NCBI GenBank assembly: GCA_913778085.1
Contig: CAJYXJ010000068.1
Location: 29,927-93,926 of the forward strand
Direction: 5' to 3'
Origin: an uncultured Chryseobacterium sp.
GTDB lineage: Bacteria > Bacteroidota > Bacteroidia > Flavobacteriales > Weeksellaceae
Length of the DNA stretch: 64,000 nt
The position numbers were made by a program, and so were the translations under genes. Of the stretch, positions 1,926 to 27,464 are shown in pieces. Position 1 is the first letter of the stretch, and each line of letters begins with the position of its first letter. Under the pieces are notes generated by a model. The model was given only the letters and a program-made list of their open reading frames with translations, had not been told where the DNA came from and made no database searches.

Positions 1926-2930
1926 TCAGCTTTTATGAAAATGGTCCGGGAAAGCTTCTTCAGGTTTCATCCTGAAAATATTTAACAAAACCCAGGATTT
2001 TAAAAATCCGTATCCATAGGAAAACATCTGAATGTAAGTTGCAATGACGGCCATTCCGGTAATGCTGATGTTTTTGGTAACCCACAAGGCATGGAACAGC
2101 ACCATAAATGTATACAGCCCGTAAAAGGCCAGAATGATTCCTTTTCCGAGAATAAAATACTCCAGAAAGCCCATGATGTAGCCCATCAGGAACAAAGTAG
2201 GAAAAGCGAATGAAATTTTTACGTAATCCGGATGCCGCTGGTTGAGGATCGGACGGGCACAGCCGAACTGGTATACCTGTTTTGAAAACTTTCCGAAGTC
2301 TACCCTGCGTTTGTGATATACCGCAATATTATCGAAAAATGCAGTCTTAAAACCATTTTCCCACAGGGTCATCGACAAATCAGGATCTTCGCCGATGCGC
2401 ATTTCGGAAAAGCCTCCCACTTTTTCAAACACTTCTTTCTTAACACCCATATTAAAGCTTCTAGGCTGAAATTTTGAAACCGCTTTTTTACTTCCACGGA
2501 TTCCGCCGGTGGTAAAAACCGAGGTCATGGAATAGGAAATGGCTTTCTGCATGAGGTTAAATCCTTTATGCGCCTTATCTGCACCGCCGAAAGCATCGCA
2601 CGGAATTTCAAGAATATCCTTTTTGATATTTTCGATATAGTCCTTTTCGACAATCACGTCGCTGTCTACAAAAACCAGCCATTCGTTTTCAGCCCTCCGT
2701 GCACCGTAATTTCTTGATAAACCGGGTCCGGAATTATCTTTACGGAAATATTTAATCTTCAAAAATTCGGTAAACTTTTCAATAGTAGGTTTCAGATCGA
2801 TCAGGGAGCCGTCATCTACAATAATGACCTCAAATGCTCTGTCCGTCTGTGCAGTAAGAGAATTCAGGAGCTCAAAAAGTTCGTCTCGACGGTTAAAAAT
2901 GGCAACAATGATGGAAATGGTAGGCTTCAA
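1926..2930 (-). CDS. Family 2 glycosyltransferase with C-terminal membrane segments
   Basis: 334 residues. The N-terminus (ISIIVAIFNRRDEL) and the DDGS motif (39-42) form the GT-A nucleotide-sugar fold, and D89-S-D91 is the metal-binding DxD. Downstream, a GEDPDLS segment corresponds to the ED of the catalytic base. Residues from about 240 hold two hydrophobic stretches, so the enzyme is probably anchored at the inner membrane and transfers sugars to a lipid or polysaccharide acceptor; the acceptor is unknown. There is no in-frame ATG near the conserved start. The only plausible initiator is TTG at 2930, supported by a promoter just upstream (TTG, 19 nt, TAATTTTG). Confidence 0.88.
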   Translation of the reverse strand: MKPTISIIVAIFNRRDELFELLNSLTAQTDRAFEVIIVDDGSLIDLKPTIEKFTEFLKIKYFRKDNSGPGLSRNYGARRAENEWLVFVDSDVIVEKDYIENIKKDILEIPCDAFGGADKAHKGFNLMQKAISYSMTSVFTTGGIRGSKKAVSKFQPRSFNMGVKKEVFEKVGGFSEMRIGEDPDLSMTLWENGFKTAFFDNIAVYHKRRVDFGKFSKQVYQFGCARPILNQRHPDYVKISFAFPTLFLMGYIMGFLEYFILGKGIILAFYGLYTFMVLFHALWVTKNISITGMAVIATYIQMFSYGYGFLKSWVLLNIFRMKPEEAFPDHFHKS

Positions 2931-2944
2931 ATCTGAAAATTTTT

Positions 2945-2974
2945 CAAAATTACTTATTAAAGGAGAATGCGCAA
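2945..2974 (-). promoter_or_regulatory. Bacteroidota-type promoter of the glycosyltransferase
   Basis: On the reverse strand a TAATTTTG box (complement of 2945-2952) lies 14 nt before the TTG start codon, with a TTG element 19 nt further upstream. This fits the TTG-N17-23-TAnnTTTG consensus of Flavobacteriia. Confidence 0.6.
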
Positions 2975-3871
2975 AGTATTTATGATATTTTATAAACAGG
3001 AAATTTCTTCAGATCGTATTCAATGGATGAAGTATTAGAAATTAATTGGTTTTGCGTTTTGAATAACCATCAACCTCAGCTTAATAACTATACATATTAT
3101 CAAGCTGAAAGTCTTGAAACCACAGGAATTATTATTTAATGATACCGGCTACGTATGAAAATCTTTCGAGAACCTCAGGATGACACAACGCTAATACTAA
3201 CCTGAATTATGTTCCGTAAAAATATACAGCCATTTAATACTGCATATACGCACTGTCAGGCTGAGGCTCTCGAAGCCACCACTAAAGCTGTGCGAAAATC
3301 CTTCGATAGCCTCAGGATGACACAACGCTAATACTAACCGGGATTATGTTCCGTAAAAATATACACCATTTTAATTCAAACCAAACTGCATGTACGCACT
3401 GTTAGGCTGAGGCTCTCGAAGCCACCACTAAAGCTGTGCGAAAATCCTTCGAGAGCCTCAGGATGACACAACGCTAATACTAACCGGGATTATGTTCCGT
3501 AAAAATATACAGCCATTTAATACTGCATGTACGCACTGTCAGGCTGAGGCTCTCGAAGCCACCACTAAAGGTGTGCGAAAATCCTTCGATAGCCTCAGGA
3601 TGACACAACGCTAATACTAACCTGAATTATGTTCCGTAAAAATATACAGCCATTTAATACTGCATATACGCACTGTCAGGCTGAGGCTCTCGAAGCCACC
3701 ACTAAAGGTGTGCGAAAATCCTTCGAGAGCCTCAGGATGACACAACGCTAATACTACCTGAATTATGTTTCATAAAAATATACTGCCATTTAATACTGCA
3801 TGTACGCACTGTCAGGCTGAGGCTCTCGAAGCCTTTCCGCAAATATTTATATCTTTAATTAAAAATACAAT
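2975..3871. repeat. Array of palindromic REP-like elements, period 137-146 bp
   Basis: A left arm (TGTCAGGCTGAGGCTCTCGAA) and a right arm (TTCGAGAGCCTCAGGATGACA) that are imperfect reverse complements recur around a loop of about 19 nt containing actaaagctgtgcg. Left/right arm pairs lie at about 3254/3297, 3400/3443, 3537/3580 and 3674/3717, with a degenerate first copy at 3101/3161. Between pairs is a conserved spacer of about 70 nt (caacgctaatactaacc ... catgtacgcac). The right-arm end repeats at 3181, 3318, 3464, 3601 and 3738, giving steps of 137 or 146 bp. A further left arm at 3810-3833 opens the element that contains the GIY-YIG gene. No protein-coding gene lies in this stretch. Confidence 0.9.
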
Positions 3872-4213
3872 ATGAAAAGATACTACGTTTACATTCTCAA
3901 ATGTTCTGATAATTCATATTATACCGGTGTTACAAATGATATTGAAAAGAGAATACAATACCATACAGAAGGTATCAATCCTGATTCATACACTTACTCA
4001 AGAAGACCTGTCGAATTGGTTTTTCACACAGAATTTAATGACGTGAACCAAGCCATTGCCTTTGAAAAGCAGGTAAAAGGATGGAGCAGAAAAAAGAAAG
4101 AAGCGATCATTAATGATGAATGGGAAAAACTTCCCAACTTATCAAAAAGAAGAAAACCAAATACATAATAGTTGGCAGTATCTGAAAAATCCTTTGAGAG
4201 CCTCAGGATGACA
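3810..4213 (+). mobile_element. Long palindromic element carrying a GIY-YIG gene in its loop
   Basis: The left arm (3810-3833) lies 38 bp before the GIY-YIG start codon, and the right arm (4188-4213) about 20 bp after its stop. The same two arms in neighbouring short copies are separated by only about 19 nt. The gene therefore sits exactly where the hairpin loop is in the short copies. A second long element with the same layout, inverted, lies at 20123-20518. I read this as the gene-carrying form of a REP-like family (inference). Confidence 0.7.
3872..4168 (+). CDS. GIY-YIG nuclease domain protein, repeat-associated copy 1
   Basis: 98 residues, a stand-alone GIY-YIG domain of the small YhbQ/UPF0213-like size. 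The GIY element appears as YVYIL (5-9) and the YIG element as YTG (17-19). R27 and a glutamate in AFEKQVKGWS fit the catalytic arginine and metal-binding glutamate. The family cuts DNA, or is presumed to. The gene lies between the two arms of a REP-like palindrome. The paralogue at 20161-20457 differs at five residues (I28M, E33A, I35M, V47I, T98R) but at about 27 synonymous codons, so the protein seems to be kept by selection. A role in spreading the palindromes is inference; a solo repair or housekeeping nuclease is the alternative. Confidence 0.85.
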   Translation: MKRYYVYILKCSDNSYYTGVTNDIEKRIQYHTEGINPDSYTYSRRPVELVFHTEFNDVNQAIAFEKQVKGWSRKKKEAIINDEWEKLPNLSKRRKPNT

Positions 4214-4490
4214 CAACGCTAATACTAACCGGGATTATGTTCCATTTAAATAAACAACCATTTAATTCAAACCAAACTACATGTACGCACTGTCAGGCTG
4301 AGACTCCAAGCCACCTTACTACAATAAAGAAATCATGATCAATGATACTGGTGACGTATGAAAATCCTTCAAGAACCTCAGGATGACACAACGCTAATAC
4401 TAACCGGAATTATATTCCATTTAAATAAACAACCATTTAATTCAAACCAAACTGCATGTACGCACTGTCAGGCTGAGGCTCTCGAAGCCA
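4169..4490. repeat. Further REP-like palindromes, long-loop class
   Basis: After the right arm at 4188-4213 there is a complete copy (left arm about 4291, right arm about 4363-4388) whose loop is about 50 nt and contains atcatgatcaatgatac. A last left arm at 4466-4489 is followed by the same loop, but the right arm is lost near 4550, where the terminator of the next gene begins. The degenerate copy at 3101-3185 has a related loop end (aatgatacc ... acgtatgaaaat). The array therefore mixes short-loop, long-loop and gene-loop copies. Confidence 0.85.
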
Positions 4491-4548
4491 CCTTACTACA
4501 AAGCACTGCATAAAGAAATCATGATCAATGATACTTGTGACGTATGAA

Positions 4549-4572
4549 AACCTTCCGCAATGCGAAAGGTTT
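4549..4572 (-). terminator. Terminator of the THUMP methyltransferase
   Basis: On the reverse strand the sequence forms a stem aacctttcgc/gcggaaggtt and is followed by a short T run, directly after the stop codon at 4580. Confidence 0.65.
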
Positions 4573-4579
4573 ATCATTA

Positions 4580-5740
4580 TTAATTTTCCAATTTATGTAC
4601 TTTTTTCGTGCCCTCGTACATTTCATACTGCAGAAAACGGGTTTCCAGTTTCCCATTGAAAAGCTTGATCTTTCTCGACGGGCGGAGACCGATTTTCTTC
4701 ACCGCTTCCAGGTCGGATGAGATCAGCCAGGCCAATGTATTTGGGTAATGGGTTTTAAAGGTATCCCCTATTTTTTTGTAGAAATCATCATCATTAATGG
4801 AGATTCTCTCATCGTATGGCGGATTGAATACCATCAGCAACGGGAAAAGTTCTTTTTTGGAATCGAAGAAATTCTGCTTTTTCACTTCGATCACGTCTTC
4901 CATTTCCGCAGCTTCGATATTTATTCTTGCGGCATTCAGCATTCGGGCATCAATGTCGTAGCCGATGATTTTTCCGGTAAATTCCTTCACCCGGTTGATA
5001 CGGAATTCCTTGATTTTCTTAAATAGGTCGGCATCATAATTTTTCCAGTTCTGGAAGGCAAATCCTCTTCTGAAAATCTGTGCCGGCAGGTCCAGGGCAA
5101 TCATGGCCGCTTCGATAAGAAGAGTTCCGGAACCGCACATCGGATCGAGGAAATTCCCTTTTCCGTCCCATCCCGCCAATTGCAGCATTCCGCTTGCCAG
5201 TACTTCGTTGATCGGTGCTTCCCCCTGCTCTCTTCGGTATCCCCTTTTAAACAAAGGATCGCCAGAGGAATCCAGAGAAATGGTAATCAGTTCACGGTCG
5301 ATATGAAGGTGGAACTTAATATCCGGGTTCCGGGTTTCCACATTCGGGCGTCTTTTGAATTTATCCTGAAAATAGTCTACGATCGCATCCTTCATCTTTA
5401 AGGTGACAAACTGCGAGTGCTTGAACGTTTCGGAATTTACCGTCGAATCAATGGCAAACGATTGATCCACATCCATAAAATCTTCCCAGTTGAATTTGAA
5501 TAGACGATCGTAAAACTGGTGCTGGTTGAAAGCTTTAAATTCATGGATGGGAACCAAGATTTTCAGCGCCGTTCTGGCAGAGTAATTAATCTTATATAAA
5601 AAACCCAAATCACCTTCACAGTTCACGGCACGGTTTTTTACTTCAACCTTCCGTCCGCCCAGCTTTTTAAGCTCTTCCGCAAGAATCTGCTCCAATCCGA
5701 AGAATGTTTTTATCTGGATCTGTATATTTTCTGTATTCAT
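4580..5740 (-). CDS. THUMP-domain class I SAM-dependent RNA methyltransferase (RlmL N-terminal-like)
   Basis: 386 residues. The N-terminal part (about 1-160) is a ferredoxin-like plus THUMP RNA-binding region, and the C-terminal part is a Rossmann methyltransferase. Motif I reads FLDPMCGSGTLLIEAA, and the catalytic NPPY is in VFNPPYDERI. This is the architecture of the RlmL N-terminal half / YpsC group that makes N2-methylguanosine in 23S rRNA; the exact target base is inferred. It is divergent from the SAM methyltransferase at 5863. The -7 box TATTTTTG (complement of 5745-5752) ends only 4 nt before ATG, so the mRNA is probably leaderless. Confidence 0.9.
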   Translation of the reverse strand: MNTENIQIQIKTFFGLEQILAEELKKLGGRKVEVKNRAVNCEGDLGFLYKINYSARTALKILVPIHEFKAFNQHQFYDRLFKFNWEDFMDVDQSFAIDSTVNSETFKHSQFVTLKMKDAIVDYFQDKFKRRPNVETRNPDIKFHLHIDRELITISLDSSGDPLFKRGYRREQGEAPINEVLASGMLQLAGWDGKGNFLDPMCGSGTLLIEAAMIALDLPAQIFRRGFAFQNWKNYDADLFKKIKEFRINRVKEFTGKIIGYDIDARMLNAARINIEAAEMEDVIEVKKQNFFDSKKELFPLLMVFNPPYDERISINDDDFYKKIGDTFKTHYPNTLAWLISSDLEAVKKIGLRPSRKIKLFNGKLETRFLQYEMYEGTKKVHKLEN

Positions 5741-19769: not shown

Positions 19770-20122
19770 AGTATTTTAATATTTTTTTAATAATTGTTAA
19801 AGCGCAAAATTAATTATTTAATTCGGTTTTCCGTATGGTCGGCATTAATTTCAGCATAATACTTAGCAAAGAATACACCGTTGATTAAATGGGCGGTGTT
19901 ATTAAGAGTGGTTTGGAAGGGTTTGGATATTTTCATCCTGACAGCCTATAATCAGATTAATATCAGCATTATGTCATCCTGAGGCTCTCGAAGGATTTTT
20001 ATACACCGTCAGTAAAGGCTTCGAGAACCTCAGCTTGACAGTACGCATATGCATTTTTGATTGAATTAAAATGCTTGTTCTGTTCAGTCAGCGGAACATA
20101 TTTCAGGTTATAATTAGCGTTA
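19770..20122. repeat. Intergenic stretch with one short REP-like palindrome, inverted relative to the first array
   Basis: 19972-19997 (tgtcatcctgaggctctcga...) is the complement of the right arm, and 20017-20040 (ggcttcgagaacctcagctt...) the complement of the left arm. The loop between them is 19 nt (tttatacaccgtcagtaaa). A half right arm (tttcatcctgacag) lies near 19931. The remaining sequence shows nothing. Confidence 0.8.
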
Positions 20123-20518
20123 GGTCATCCTGAGACTCTCGAAGGATTACACCGCTATTGTCATCTATTTGGTTTCCTTCTTTTTGATAGGTTTGGCAGT
20201 TTTTCCCATTCATCATTAATAATAGCTTCTTTCTTTTTTCTGCTCCATCCTTTCACCTGCTTTTCAAATGCGATAGCTTGATTTACATCATTGAATTCTG
20301 TATGAAAGACCAATTCAATAGGTCTTCTTGAATATGTATATGAATCAGGATTCATACCTGCTGTATGATATTGCATTCTTTTTTCGATATCATTGGTAAC
20401 ACCGGTATAATAGGAATTATCAGAACATTTAAGAATGTAGACATAGTATCTTTTCATATTGTATTTTAGTTAAAGATATGAATATTTGCAAAAAGGCTTC
20501 GAGAACCTCAGCCTGACA
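20123..20518 (-). mobile_element. Long palindromic element carrying a GIY-YIG gene, second locus
   Basis: Read on the reverse strand, the left arm (complement of 20495-20518) lies 37 bp before the start codon and the right arm (complement of 20123-20148) just after the stop. The leader between arm and ATG (ttgcaaatattcatatcttt) is nearly the same as in the first locus. The layout repeats that of 3810-4213 exactly. Confidence 0.7.
20161..20457 (-). CDS. GIY-YIG nuclease domain protein, repeat-associated copy 2
   Basis: 98 residues, 93 identical to the copy at 3872-4168. The GIY-YIG landmarks YVYIL (5-9), YTG (17-19), R27 and the AFEKQVKGWS segment are unchanged. By codon comparison about 27 positions differ silently against five replacements, which points to selection on the protein rather than to a fresh duplication. 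The gene again lies between the two arms of the same palindrome. Confidence 0.85.
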   Translation of the reverse strand: MKRYYVYILKCSDNSYYTGVTNDIEKRMQYHTAGMNPDSYTYSRRPIELVFHTEFNDVNQAIAFEKQVKGWSRKKKEAIINDEWEKLPNLSKRRKPNR

Positions 20519-20796
20519 GTGCGCATATGCAGTTTTAATTGAATTAAAATGGGTGTTCTGTTCAGTCAAGGAAACCTATTTCAAATTAGTATTAGCGTTA
20601 GGTCATCCTGAAGATTTCGAAAGATTTTACACCACCGGTAAAATAGCAAAAAATCCAACTGTAAGGAAAGTTATCTCATCAGCATGAAATTTTGAATTAA
20701 CAACAAAAAATGCAGATAAGAAATCATCCTAAACAAGCAGTAAAGAAAGCTCCAGCCAAAAGAGAATCTTCATTTAAATTTCCATATCTTTAATTT
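20519..20796. repeat. Half palindrome downstream of the second GIY-YIG element
   Basis: About 20602-20627 (gtcatcctgaagatttcgaaag) is a degenerate right arm in the same reversed orientation, and no left arm follows. The word agcgttagg before it corresponds to the caacgctaat spacer of the first array. The last 140 bp before the esterase gene show nothing clear. Confidence 0.65.
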
Positions 20797-26561: not shown

Positions 26562-27464
26562 ATGGAAAAAATTTTATCCGTAAAGAATCTGACGAAAAAA
26601 TTCAAAAGAACGGTAGTGAACAATATTTCCTTCGATGTGGAAAGAGGAAATGTTTACGGACTGCTTGGACCGAACGGAAGCGGAAAATCCACAACCTTCG
26701 GGATGCTGCTTTCAACGATCAACCCTACCAGCGGCGAATGGTACTGGTTCGGGAAGAAAGGCACCGATCCCGACACATTGAAGAAAATCGGGGCCATTAT
26801 CGAACAGCCAAATTTTTATCCGTACCTGAATGCGGAAACCAACCTGAAAATCGTAGCAGAGATCAAGGGAACACCTTATTCGAGAATTGATGAGGTTTTA
26901 AAAACCGTTAACCTCCTGGAAAGGAAGAAAGACTTGTTCCGAACATATTCCCTGGGCATGAAACAACGTCTGGCCATTGCTTCTGCCATGCTGAACAATC
27001 CCGAAGTGATGATCCTTGACGAGCCGACGAACGGTCTTGATCCCGAAGGAATCATCCAGATCCGTGAGATCATCAGCAATATTGCCAAACAGGGCATTAC
27101 AATTATTATTGCCAGCCATTTGCTGGATGAAATCGAAAAGATCTGCAGCCACGTGATTGTTCTGAAAGAAGGAACTTCGCTATACTGCGGAAGGGTGGAT
27201 GAAATGACTGCGAACAACGGCTATTTTGAGCTAAAGGCAGACAACAATACATTGCTTCTGAATGCACTGAATGAACTTCAGTGGTTTACGGCCATTAACC
27301 ATGACGGCGACCTGCTGAAAGCCCAGATCCGGGATGATGCCTCGGTTTCCGCTTCAGCATTGAATCAGAAGCTGTCTGAAAAAGGAATTTTCCTTTCGCA
27401 CCTGACGAAGAAAAAGCTTTCTCTTGAGTCCCAATTCCTTGAACTTGTAAAAAACACAAAATAA
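26562..27464 (+). CDS. ABC transporter ATP-binding protein
   Basis: 300 residues. Walker A is GPNGSGKST (36-44), the ABC signature is the variant YSLGMKQRLAIASA (about 127-140), and Walker B is VMILDEPTNG. The protein belongs to the drug/lantibiotic-type exporters with a C-terminal extension of about 85 residues. The permease starts 3 bp after its stop, so the two form an ABC-2 exporter in the inner membrane. The substrate is unknown. Confidence 0.93.
   Translation: MEKILSVKNLTKKFKRTVVNNISFDVERGNVYGLLGPNGSGKSTTFGMLLSTINPTSGEWYWFGKKGTDPDTLKKIGAIIEQPNFYPYLNAETNLKIVAEIKGTPYSRIDEVLKTVNLLERKKDLFRTYSLGMKQRLAIASAMLNNPEVMILDEPTNGLDPEGIIQIREIISNIAKQGITIIIASHLLDEIEKICSHVIVLKEGTSLYCGRVDEMTANNGYFELKADNNTLLLNALNELQWFTAINHDGDLLKAQIRDDASVSASALNQKLSEKGIFLSHLTKKKLSLESQFLELVKNTK

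Follow-up and report, generated by a model that had tools for sequence, protein, structure and literature searches.

Tagged palindromic repeats are widespread in bacteria. For those with a CGTC or TGTC tag, the survey that defined them (Di Nocera et al. 2013, PMC3733652) found, in its accessible text, no enzyme, a dedicated transposase being apparently lacking. Does the 64,000-nucleotide (nt) stretch of Chryseobacterium DNA analysed here (the window), in which hairpins of the repetitive extragenic palindromic (REP) type flank a small GIY-YIG nuclease gene, hold such an enzyme? The association of the gene with the hairpins, and its clade specificity, are near certain. They are best explained as one system, a minimal GIY-YIG endonuclease with its cognate REP hairpins, and the nuclease is likely (with a probability of about 0.6) the enzyme responsible for spreading or maintaining these repeats.

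In the window, the arm core GAGCCTCAGGATGACA, with up to three mismatches, has 18 matches against 0.31 expected, and none of 100 shuffles reached 18. The palindromes sharing a left and a right arm that a sequence-only reading of this DNA had described were thus borne out. Four pairs of 22-nt arms are empty, separated by 25 nt, a spacing equivalent to the loop of about 19 nt given by that reading if each arm is extended by three bases. The reading had also placed a 98-amino-acid (aa) GIY-YIG gene between the same arms at 3810-4213. These coordinates were confirmed (left arm 3810-3831, gene 3872-4168 on the plus strand, right arm 4192-4213), and the product matches Pfam GIY-YIG (PF01541) with an E value of 2.1e-18. 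A second locus, 19972-20622, had been missed; its 98-aa gene (20161-20457, minus strand) lies between the same inverted arms and its protein is 96% identical to the first, meaning that one genome holds two copies of the gene plus its arms. The features are as follows.

3872..4168, plus strand: GIY-YIG nuclease gene copy 1 (clade A), 98 aa; open reading frame (ORF), PF01541, residue alignment
3810..3831, plus strand: left REP hairpin flanking copy 1, TGTC tag outward, stem AGGCT/AGCCT
4192..4213, minus strand: right REP hairpin flanking copy 1, TGTC tag outward, stem ATCCT/AGGAT
3164..3185, minus strand: REP hairpin of the array, 4/5 stem pairs
3254..3275, plus strand: REP hairpin of the array
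3301..3322, minus strand: REP hairpin of the array
3400..3421, plus strand: REP hairpin of the array, tag TGTT
3447..3468, minus strand: REP hairpin of the array
3537..3558, plus strand: REP hairpin of the array
3584..3605, minus strand: REP hairpin of the array
3674..3695, plus strand: REP hairpin of the array
3721..3742, minus strand: REP hairpin of the array
4291..4306, plus strand: degenerate REP arm of the array, core shortened
4367..4388, minus strand: REP hairpin of the array
4466..4487, plus strand: REP hairpin of the array
20161..20457, minus strand: GIY-YIG nuclease gene copy 2, 98 aa, 96% identical to copy 1
20497..20518, minus strand: upstream REP hairpin of copy 2, tag outward
20123..20144, plus strand: downstream REP hairpin of copy 2, tag GGTC, outward
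20019..20040, minus strand: REP hairpin adjoining copy 2
19972..19993, plus strand: REP hairpin adjoining copy 2
20601..20622, plus strand: degenerate REP arm adjoining copy 2, 3 mismatches, tag GGTC

Leaving out a chance-like 19th match at 26984 and the shortened arm at 4291, the tag of the 18 arms is TGTC in 15 cases, TGTT in one and GGTC in two. The first array and its gene lie in the intergenic region 2931-4579, whose neighbours are, by reading, a glycosyltransferase-like ORF on one side and a methyltransferase-like ORF on the other. An Rfam search of 2900-4700 returned one match at chance level, and an NCBIfam search returned no family. The whole genome contains six PF01541 matches; a third short gene opened in it (contig C62) is flanked by a different palindrome.

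We then looked at how one arm is built. The window consensus, TGTC-ANNCT-GAG(N)TCGA-AGNNT, comprises an unpaired TGTC tag, a 5-bp stem (ANNCT/AGNNT) and an 11-nt core. Among 80 distinct clade A arms, the clade for which stem covariation was tested, fetched from 70 loci by the arm pattern itself, the variable NN stem bases were complementary in 72, compared with a mean of 30 and a maximum of 42 in 1000 shuffles. When the gene-holding locus was removed, 70 of the 78 arms were still complementary (shuffled mean 30.7, maximum 41), with eight complementary base combinations among these arms from gene-less loci. In the first window array, plus arms carry AGGCT/AGCC and minus arms ATCCT/AGGAT; each matches itself, and left does not match right. 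The sequence-only reading had put the gene in the loop of a single hairpin formed by a left and a right arm. This model was set aside because of the within-arm covariation and the differing plus and minus stems: since each arm can fold on its own, the gene lies between two hairpins. The repeat unit is thus a predicted tagged REP hairpin, and the gene sits between two of them with the tags outward.

This outward arrangement sets the gene-flanking pairs of the window apart from the other pairs. At 40 arm-fetched loci, 20 of them from a single genome (G028), the tags of adjacent arms were inside in 18/20 pairs, 27-65 nt apart, and 22 loci had a single arm. In the 13 genomes with full arm lists, five outward pairs (plus then minus) have starts separated by 343-366 nt, and a GIY-YIG gene lies within every one of them. 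In six pairs (L379, L387, L389, L394, L397 and L411) one arm has a box like TTAGTATTAG adjoining its tag; this box may belong to the repeat.

Does each nuclease have its own repeat? Among 99 genomes of the genus, a GIY-YIG match was present in 77 (among the matches listed) and the arm pattern TGTCANNCTGAG(N3-6)TCGAAG in 86, the reversed pattern giving zero matches. The nucleases fall into six clades, each beside its own repeat family, and the cognate motif was found on at least one side at 85/89 loci (A 28/30, B 13/14, C1 15/15, C2 10/11, C3 8/8, D 11/11). A non-cognate motif occurred nine times: the A motif stood beside five C1 loci and the C1 motif beside four C2 loci, the C1 and C2 motifs resembling each other when up to two mismatches are allowed. 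Of the 46 loci in the 21 genomes that hold two clades or more, 45 carried the cognate motif, compared with a mean of 22.9 and a maximum of 38 in 5000 within-genome label shuffles; the definition of the motifs behind these counts drew in part on the tested loci themselves. Motifs A, B, C1, C2 and D, fixed on earlier loci, fitted 27 of the 32 non-C3 loci among 40 newly fetched ones, C3 and a D variant having been defined after viewing the new loci; in this set C2 loci also matched the C1 motif.

The flanks were also compared without any predefined motif, by scoring the best ungapped inverted repeat between the left and right flanks (cut-off 14, reversed flanks as controls, distances taken from the ends of the profile match for the genus and Bacteroidota). 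At a score of at least 14, repeats flanked 60/87 genus loci (control 0) and 44/66 loci of a Bacteroidota sample (control 1), compared with 0/30 for an unrelated methyltransferase gene of the genus. At 12 or more the figures were 74/87 (control 5), 50/66 (control 6) and 2/30. One short-flank locus was dropped from the 88 of the genus, and one locus (L170) repeats another (L087). An earlier variant measured from ORF ends, which missed arms overlapping the 3' end of the genes at the valS site (see below), gave 51/114 at 14 or more, with controls of 1 and 0.

The same held across phyla. For the best 80 of 92 relatives, many of them from metagenome-assembled genomes (MAGs), 44 loci scored at least 14 (controls 2 and 0), 56 at least 12 (controls 8 and 0) and 26 at least 20 (controls 0 and 0). 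By their titles, loci at 14 or more came from Bacteroidetes, Planctomycetes, Patescibacteria groups, Omnitrophota, Zixiibacteriota, Chloroflexi-type Anaerolineae, Proteobacteria (Sphingobium, Neisseria and others) and Nitrospirae; an Acidobacteriales locus is weak (score 14, arms more than 200 nt away). In 24 of the 44 flanked loci an ATTCCC..GGGAAT palindrome, the CGTC-1/dRS3 type, stood on at least one side, and in 16 on both, TGTCATTCCCGCGAAAGCGGGAATCCA being typical. In DNA folding of eight single arms, a CGTC-1-type arm was clearly better than its shuffles (z -4.9) and a C2 arm with a three-base loop moderately so (z -2.9), whereas three clade A arms (z -0.4, -0.3, +0.2) and the C3, C1 and B arms (z 0.1, 1.2, -1.4) were no better. 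As clade A folding is not above shuffles, the claim of one hairpin per arm rests on covariation and not on energy; we suspect tandem G.A pairs in the GAG...CGA of these arms.

The relatives include 26 plasmid and 23 phage records. Ten of the plasmid loci were opened: arms were clear at L248 and L249 (Methylobacterium), L250 (Sphingomonas) and L252 (Rhizobium), repeats reached a borderline score of 14 at L257 (Planktothrix), palindromes scored 12 at L253 (Spirosoma), and L251, L254, L255 and L256 had no arms. At L249, on a Methylobacterium aquaticum plasmid, a frame-broken GIY-YIG gene lies within an inverted repeat whose arms are each about 85 nt long. At L257, on a Planktothrix agardhii plasmid, the gene with its TGTCATTCTGAG repeats lies between annotated MmeI-type restriction enzyme and DISARM DrmA genes.

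The protein itself consists of the GIY-YIG domain alone. In an alignment of 14 diverse members, copy 1 included, Y7, I8, Y17, G19, R27, H31, L49, E65, K69, W71, R73 and K76 are invariant; we take Y7, Y17, R27, H31 and E65 to be the GIY-YIG catalytic residues, by which the catalytic set is kept. The nearest solved structures are UPF0213 proteins, with 1zg2 as the best (E 3.5e-15). These UPF0213/YazA-type proteins (PDB 1zg2, 1ywl) share the domain and have a similar length; unlike the arm-flanked genes, Bacillus yazA (L255) lies between trmN-type and rsmI genes and has no arms.

Do gene and repeats occur together? In 296 Bacteroidota genomes, A-type arms were present in 97/188 with any GIY-YIG match and in 19/108 without (p 4e-9; relatedness is ignored in this and the following p values). 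Clade B repeats were present in 13 of 14 genomes sequence-confirmed to carry a clade B gene, compared with 14 of the 85 others, judged among the matches listed (p 4e-8). The 28 clade A genomes (E <1e-35) were richer in arms than the other 71 (p 1e-4, or 0.03 after subtracting four arms per gene-bearing genome). Outside Bacteroidota, the CGTC-1-type pattern GTCATTCCCGCNNNNGCGGGAA was found in 21 of the 24 genomes reached via 25 cross-phylum loci (control 0). In the genus of Neisseria viridiae (L289; 46 genomes), 19 genomes had the gene and 31 the pattern, with a median of 25 copies with the gene and 2 without (p 0.003), and dRS3-type palindromes stood on both sides of 9 of 20 loci and on the right only of 3 more (one at one mismatch).

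The sequence-only reading had proposed comparing filled and empty sites in close strains, and at orthologous sites the gene with its arms is indeed present in some congeners and absent in others. Downstream of valS, read in 30 of the 99 genomes, six have gene and arms (443-491 nt), the gene carrying an internal stop in two of them (G054 and G005); another (G076) has intact arms round a broken gene (350 nt), 18 have 64-94 nt and no gene, and five have other sequence. At 8 of the 18 gene-less sites the hairpin TCAGGCTG...CAGCCTGA occupies the same place with the same outer stem bases, so that the gene may either have entered a hairpin there or have been lost until just a hairpin was left. Among 20 congeners read at the site of the window locus itself, two have the gene (G049 and G076), one a decayed gene (G019), one a gene-less array (G013), two a single arm (G033 and G039) and one a weak match (G023); 13 have no arm in the stretch read, both neighbour genes being recognised in five (G034, G078, G080, G087 and G095).

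Some valS copies differ in their arms. In G025 a changed core is common to both arms, which form a perfect inverted repeat of 56 bp; in G048, G054 and G005 the change is confined to one arm. These cores suggest that exchange between arms may have occurred. In four valS-site copies (L042, L045, L046 and L048) a second palindromic segment (CACAGATGAAAATCTGCGAACAAATGTTCACG) takes the place of the core, either in a single arm or in both. Tandem near-identical GIY-YIG genes with a period of about 360 nt were also seen at L095 (G013:C1:3683000-3687000) and L096 (G019:C1:133400-137000). Each gene of these arrays follows a partial tRNA-like sequence (tRNA-Asp by reading) whose middle is replaced by the palindrome TCTCGTC..GACGAGA; they are possibly another clade with tRNA genes as its site.

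Altogether, the repeated adjacency of gene and hairpins, with a hairpin type of its own for each nuclease branch, points to the GIY-YIG gene as the best candidate for the missing enzyme of CGTC/TGTC REPs. In the mechanism we propose, the nuclease would recognise tag and hairpin in single-stranded or extruded DNA and nick or cut beside the tag, and host replication and repair would copy or join the cut ends to new places. The gene flanked by two hairpins would be the autonomous unit; solitary hairpins and hairpin pairs would be copied in trans and could outlive the gene. The GIY-YIG nuclease would thereby do for CGTC/TGTC REPs what the Y1 transposase TnpA-REP, or REP-associated tyrosine transposase (RAYT), does for GTAG REPs. 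The sequence-only reading had already set a GIY-YIG endonuclease in the place of RAYT; as an association this is strongly supported by the clade-specific repeats and by the flanking repeats at genus, phylum and cross-phylum level, while mobility caused by the nuclease is a step that we infer.

Several observations weigh against this proposal, beginning with the fact that both movement and cleavage by the nuclease belong to that inferred step. The copies at valS and at a putative murG-murC site look vertically inherited rather than jumping, and no sign of a target duplication, an excision product or cleavage was seen, filled and empty valS sites having been compared for presence and length only. 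The sequence-only reading had asked whether the gene always lies between the arms; strong inverted repeats flank it at the 60 genus loci mentioned above, and 27/87 genus, 22/66 phylum and 36/80 cross-phylum loci fall below the cut-off of 14. Some family members lie in operons without arms, and 8/20 loci of the Neisseria genus have no dRS3-type palindrome in reach. The same reading had named palindromes common in genomes without the gene as evidence against it, which is partly what we found: of the 22 genus genomes in which no GIY-YIG match was detected, 17 have arms all the same, as many as 37, and gene-less genomes of the Neisseria genus hold 152, 91, 90, 67, 48, 35 and 30 copies. Finally, the co-occurrence statistics ignore relatedness.

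Could the gene instead be a homing-type invader of hairpins that spread otherwise, cutting them and recombining in, a parasite and not their cause? GIY-YIG is a classical homing nuclease fold, the genes sit within tandem hairpin arrays, many repeat-rich genomes have no detected gene, and eight gene-less valS sites hold a hairpin with the same outer stem bases. We nevertheless consider this unlikely, if a serious alternative: a 98-aa protein has no room for a separate DNA-binding domain, and in an Omnitrophota-titled genome (G398) the only two exact GTCATTCCCGCNNNNGCGGGAA copies both flank its gene (L275). The six clades with a repeat family each, even within shared genomes, also argue against an invader, although site-specific homing would predict them too. 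A domesticated host function, in which the nuclease acts on hairpins to process or control them (at replication forks or in transcripts, for instance) and is selected at fixed loci, any spread being past, would account for the compensatory changes that keep the stems, for retention at two conserved loci (15 and 8 of 99 genus genomes; the name murG-murC is by reading) and for the arm-less relatives in housekeeping operons. It fits poorly with the pseudogenes and remnants at the same loci, with several matches per genome and with the variation among congeners in whether gene and arms are present, and we judge it quite improbable. That small genes merely hitchhike in repeat-rich intergenic regions, or that assembly or MAG binning produced the pattern, seems hardly credible: some genomes are indeed dense in repeats (99 arms in G043) and many cross-phylum loci come from MAGs, but the flank controls contradict it, the association is clade-specific, and the single-contig genomes G038 and G020 show the gene-arm pattern too.

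A nuclease that spreads or maintains its cognate hairpins is thus the reading we prefer. A wider claim, that GIY-YIG nucleases serve the entire CGTC/TGTC REP superfamily, dRS3 included, as its missing dedicated enzymes in at least eight phylum-level groups, and hence are a second, independently evolved REP-spreading machine without a transposase fold, appears to us evenly balanced. If true, genome parasitism of the REP type evolved on two occasions, from nucleases that are unrelated, and familiar repeats, dRS3 among them, would have their source explained. With a small expressible nuclease, a known active site and matched predicted hairpin substrates, the question is testable at once. No paper linking GIY-YIG with REPs was found in the open-licence literature, the scope of the search (subscription papers and preprints lay outside it), and neither GIY nor GIY-YIG occurs in the accessible parts of PMC12306157 and PMC6006769.

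How does the system compare with known ones? Free-standing and intron-encoded homing endonucleases have the GIY-YIG catalytic domain and a selfish spread, but carry extra DNA-binding parts and have long targets that are unique; the window protein consists of the domain alone, and its target would be a hairpin present in many copies. In Penelope-like retroelements a GIY-YIG endonuclease also serves mobility, together with a reverse transcriptase, which is absent from the gene-bearing unit described here. The closest repeats are those of the CGTC-tagged superfamily, which, in the accessible text of PMC3733652, includes Neisseria dRS3 and Rickettsia RPE-4/RPE-6 and is characterised by a stem of 8-9 bp starting with AT, a loop of 4-5 nt and dimers mostly with tags outside (HH), CGTC-1 having an 8-bp stem, a 4-nt loop and a CCA tail; dRS3 is given as ATTCCC(N8)GGGAAT, with 646-725 copies in the meningococcal genomes tabulated in the accessible part of PMC3898611. 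The window repeats share with them the unpaired CGTC/TGTC tag (CGTC, often TGTC, in the superfamily), a palindromic stem beginning A(T) and many copies. The superfamily stem and loop are absent from the window arms and present in the cross-phylum TGTCATTCCCGCGAAAGCGGGAATCC arms, and the cross-phylum arm TGTCATTCCCGCGAAAGCGGGAATCCA fits the published CGTC-1 description. Because of their 5-bp stem, conserved GAG...CGA core and pairs with tags inside (18/20 adjacent pairs, the gene-flanking pairs having them outside), the window repeats form a related but distinct family, and, in contrast to the superfamily as described, a GIY-YIG gene is tied to them.

The nearest functional parallel is RAYT/TnpA-REP with GTAG REPs and REP doublets forming hairpins (REPINs), as far as the accessible parts of PMC3116915 and PMC8266576 describe it. 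Common to both are many tagged hairpins, dimers and tandem arrays, and a small DNA-processing gene beside its cognate hairpins, with several gene-repeat pairs per genome; here, too, the gene is flanked by its own hairpin family and a genome holds several such pairs. The enzyme and the tag differ. The flanked gene in the window is a GIY-YIG gene and not a Y1 HUH one (no search was made for a RAYT elsewhere in the genome), and the window tag is TGTC, not GTAG: a Y1 HUH enzyme accompanies GTAG there, a GIY-YIG fold accompanies a TGTC/CGTC tag here.
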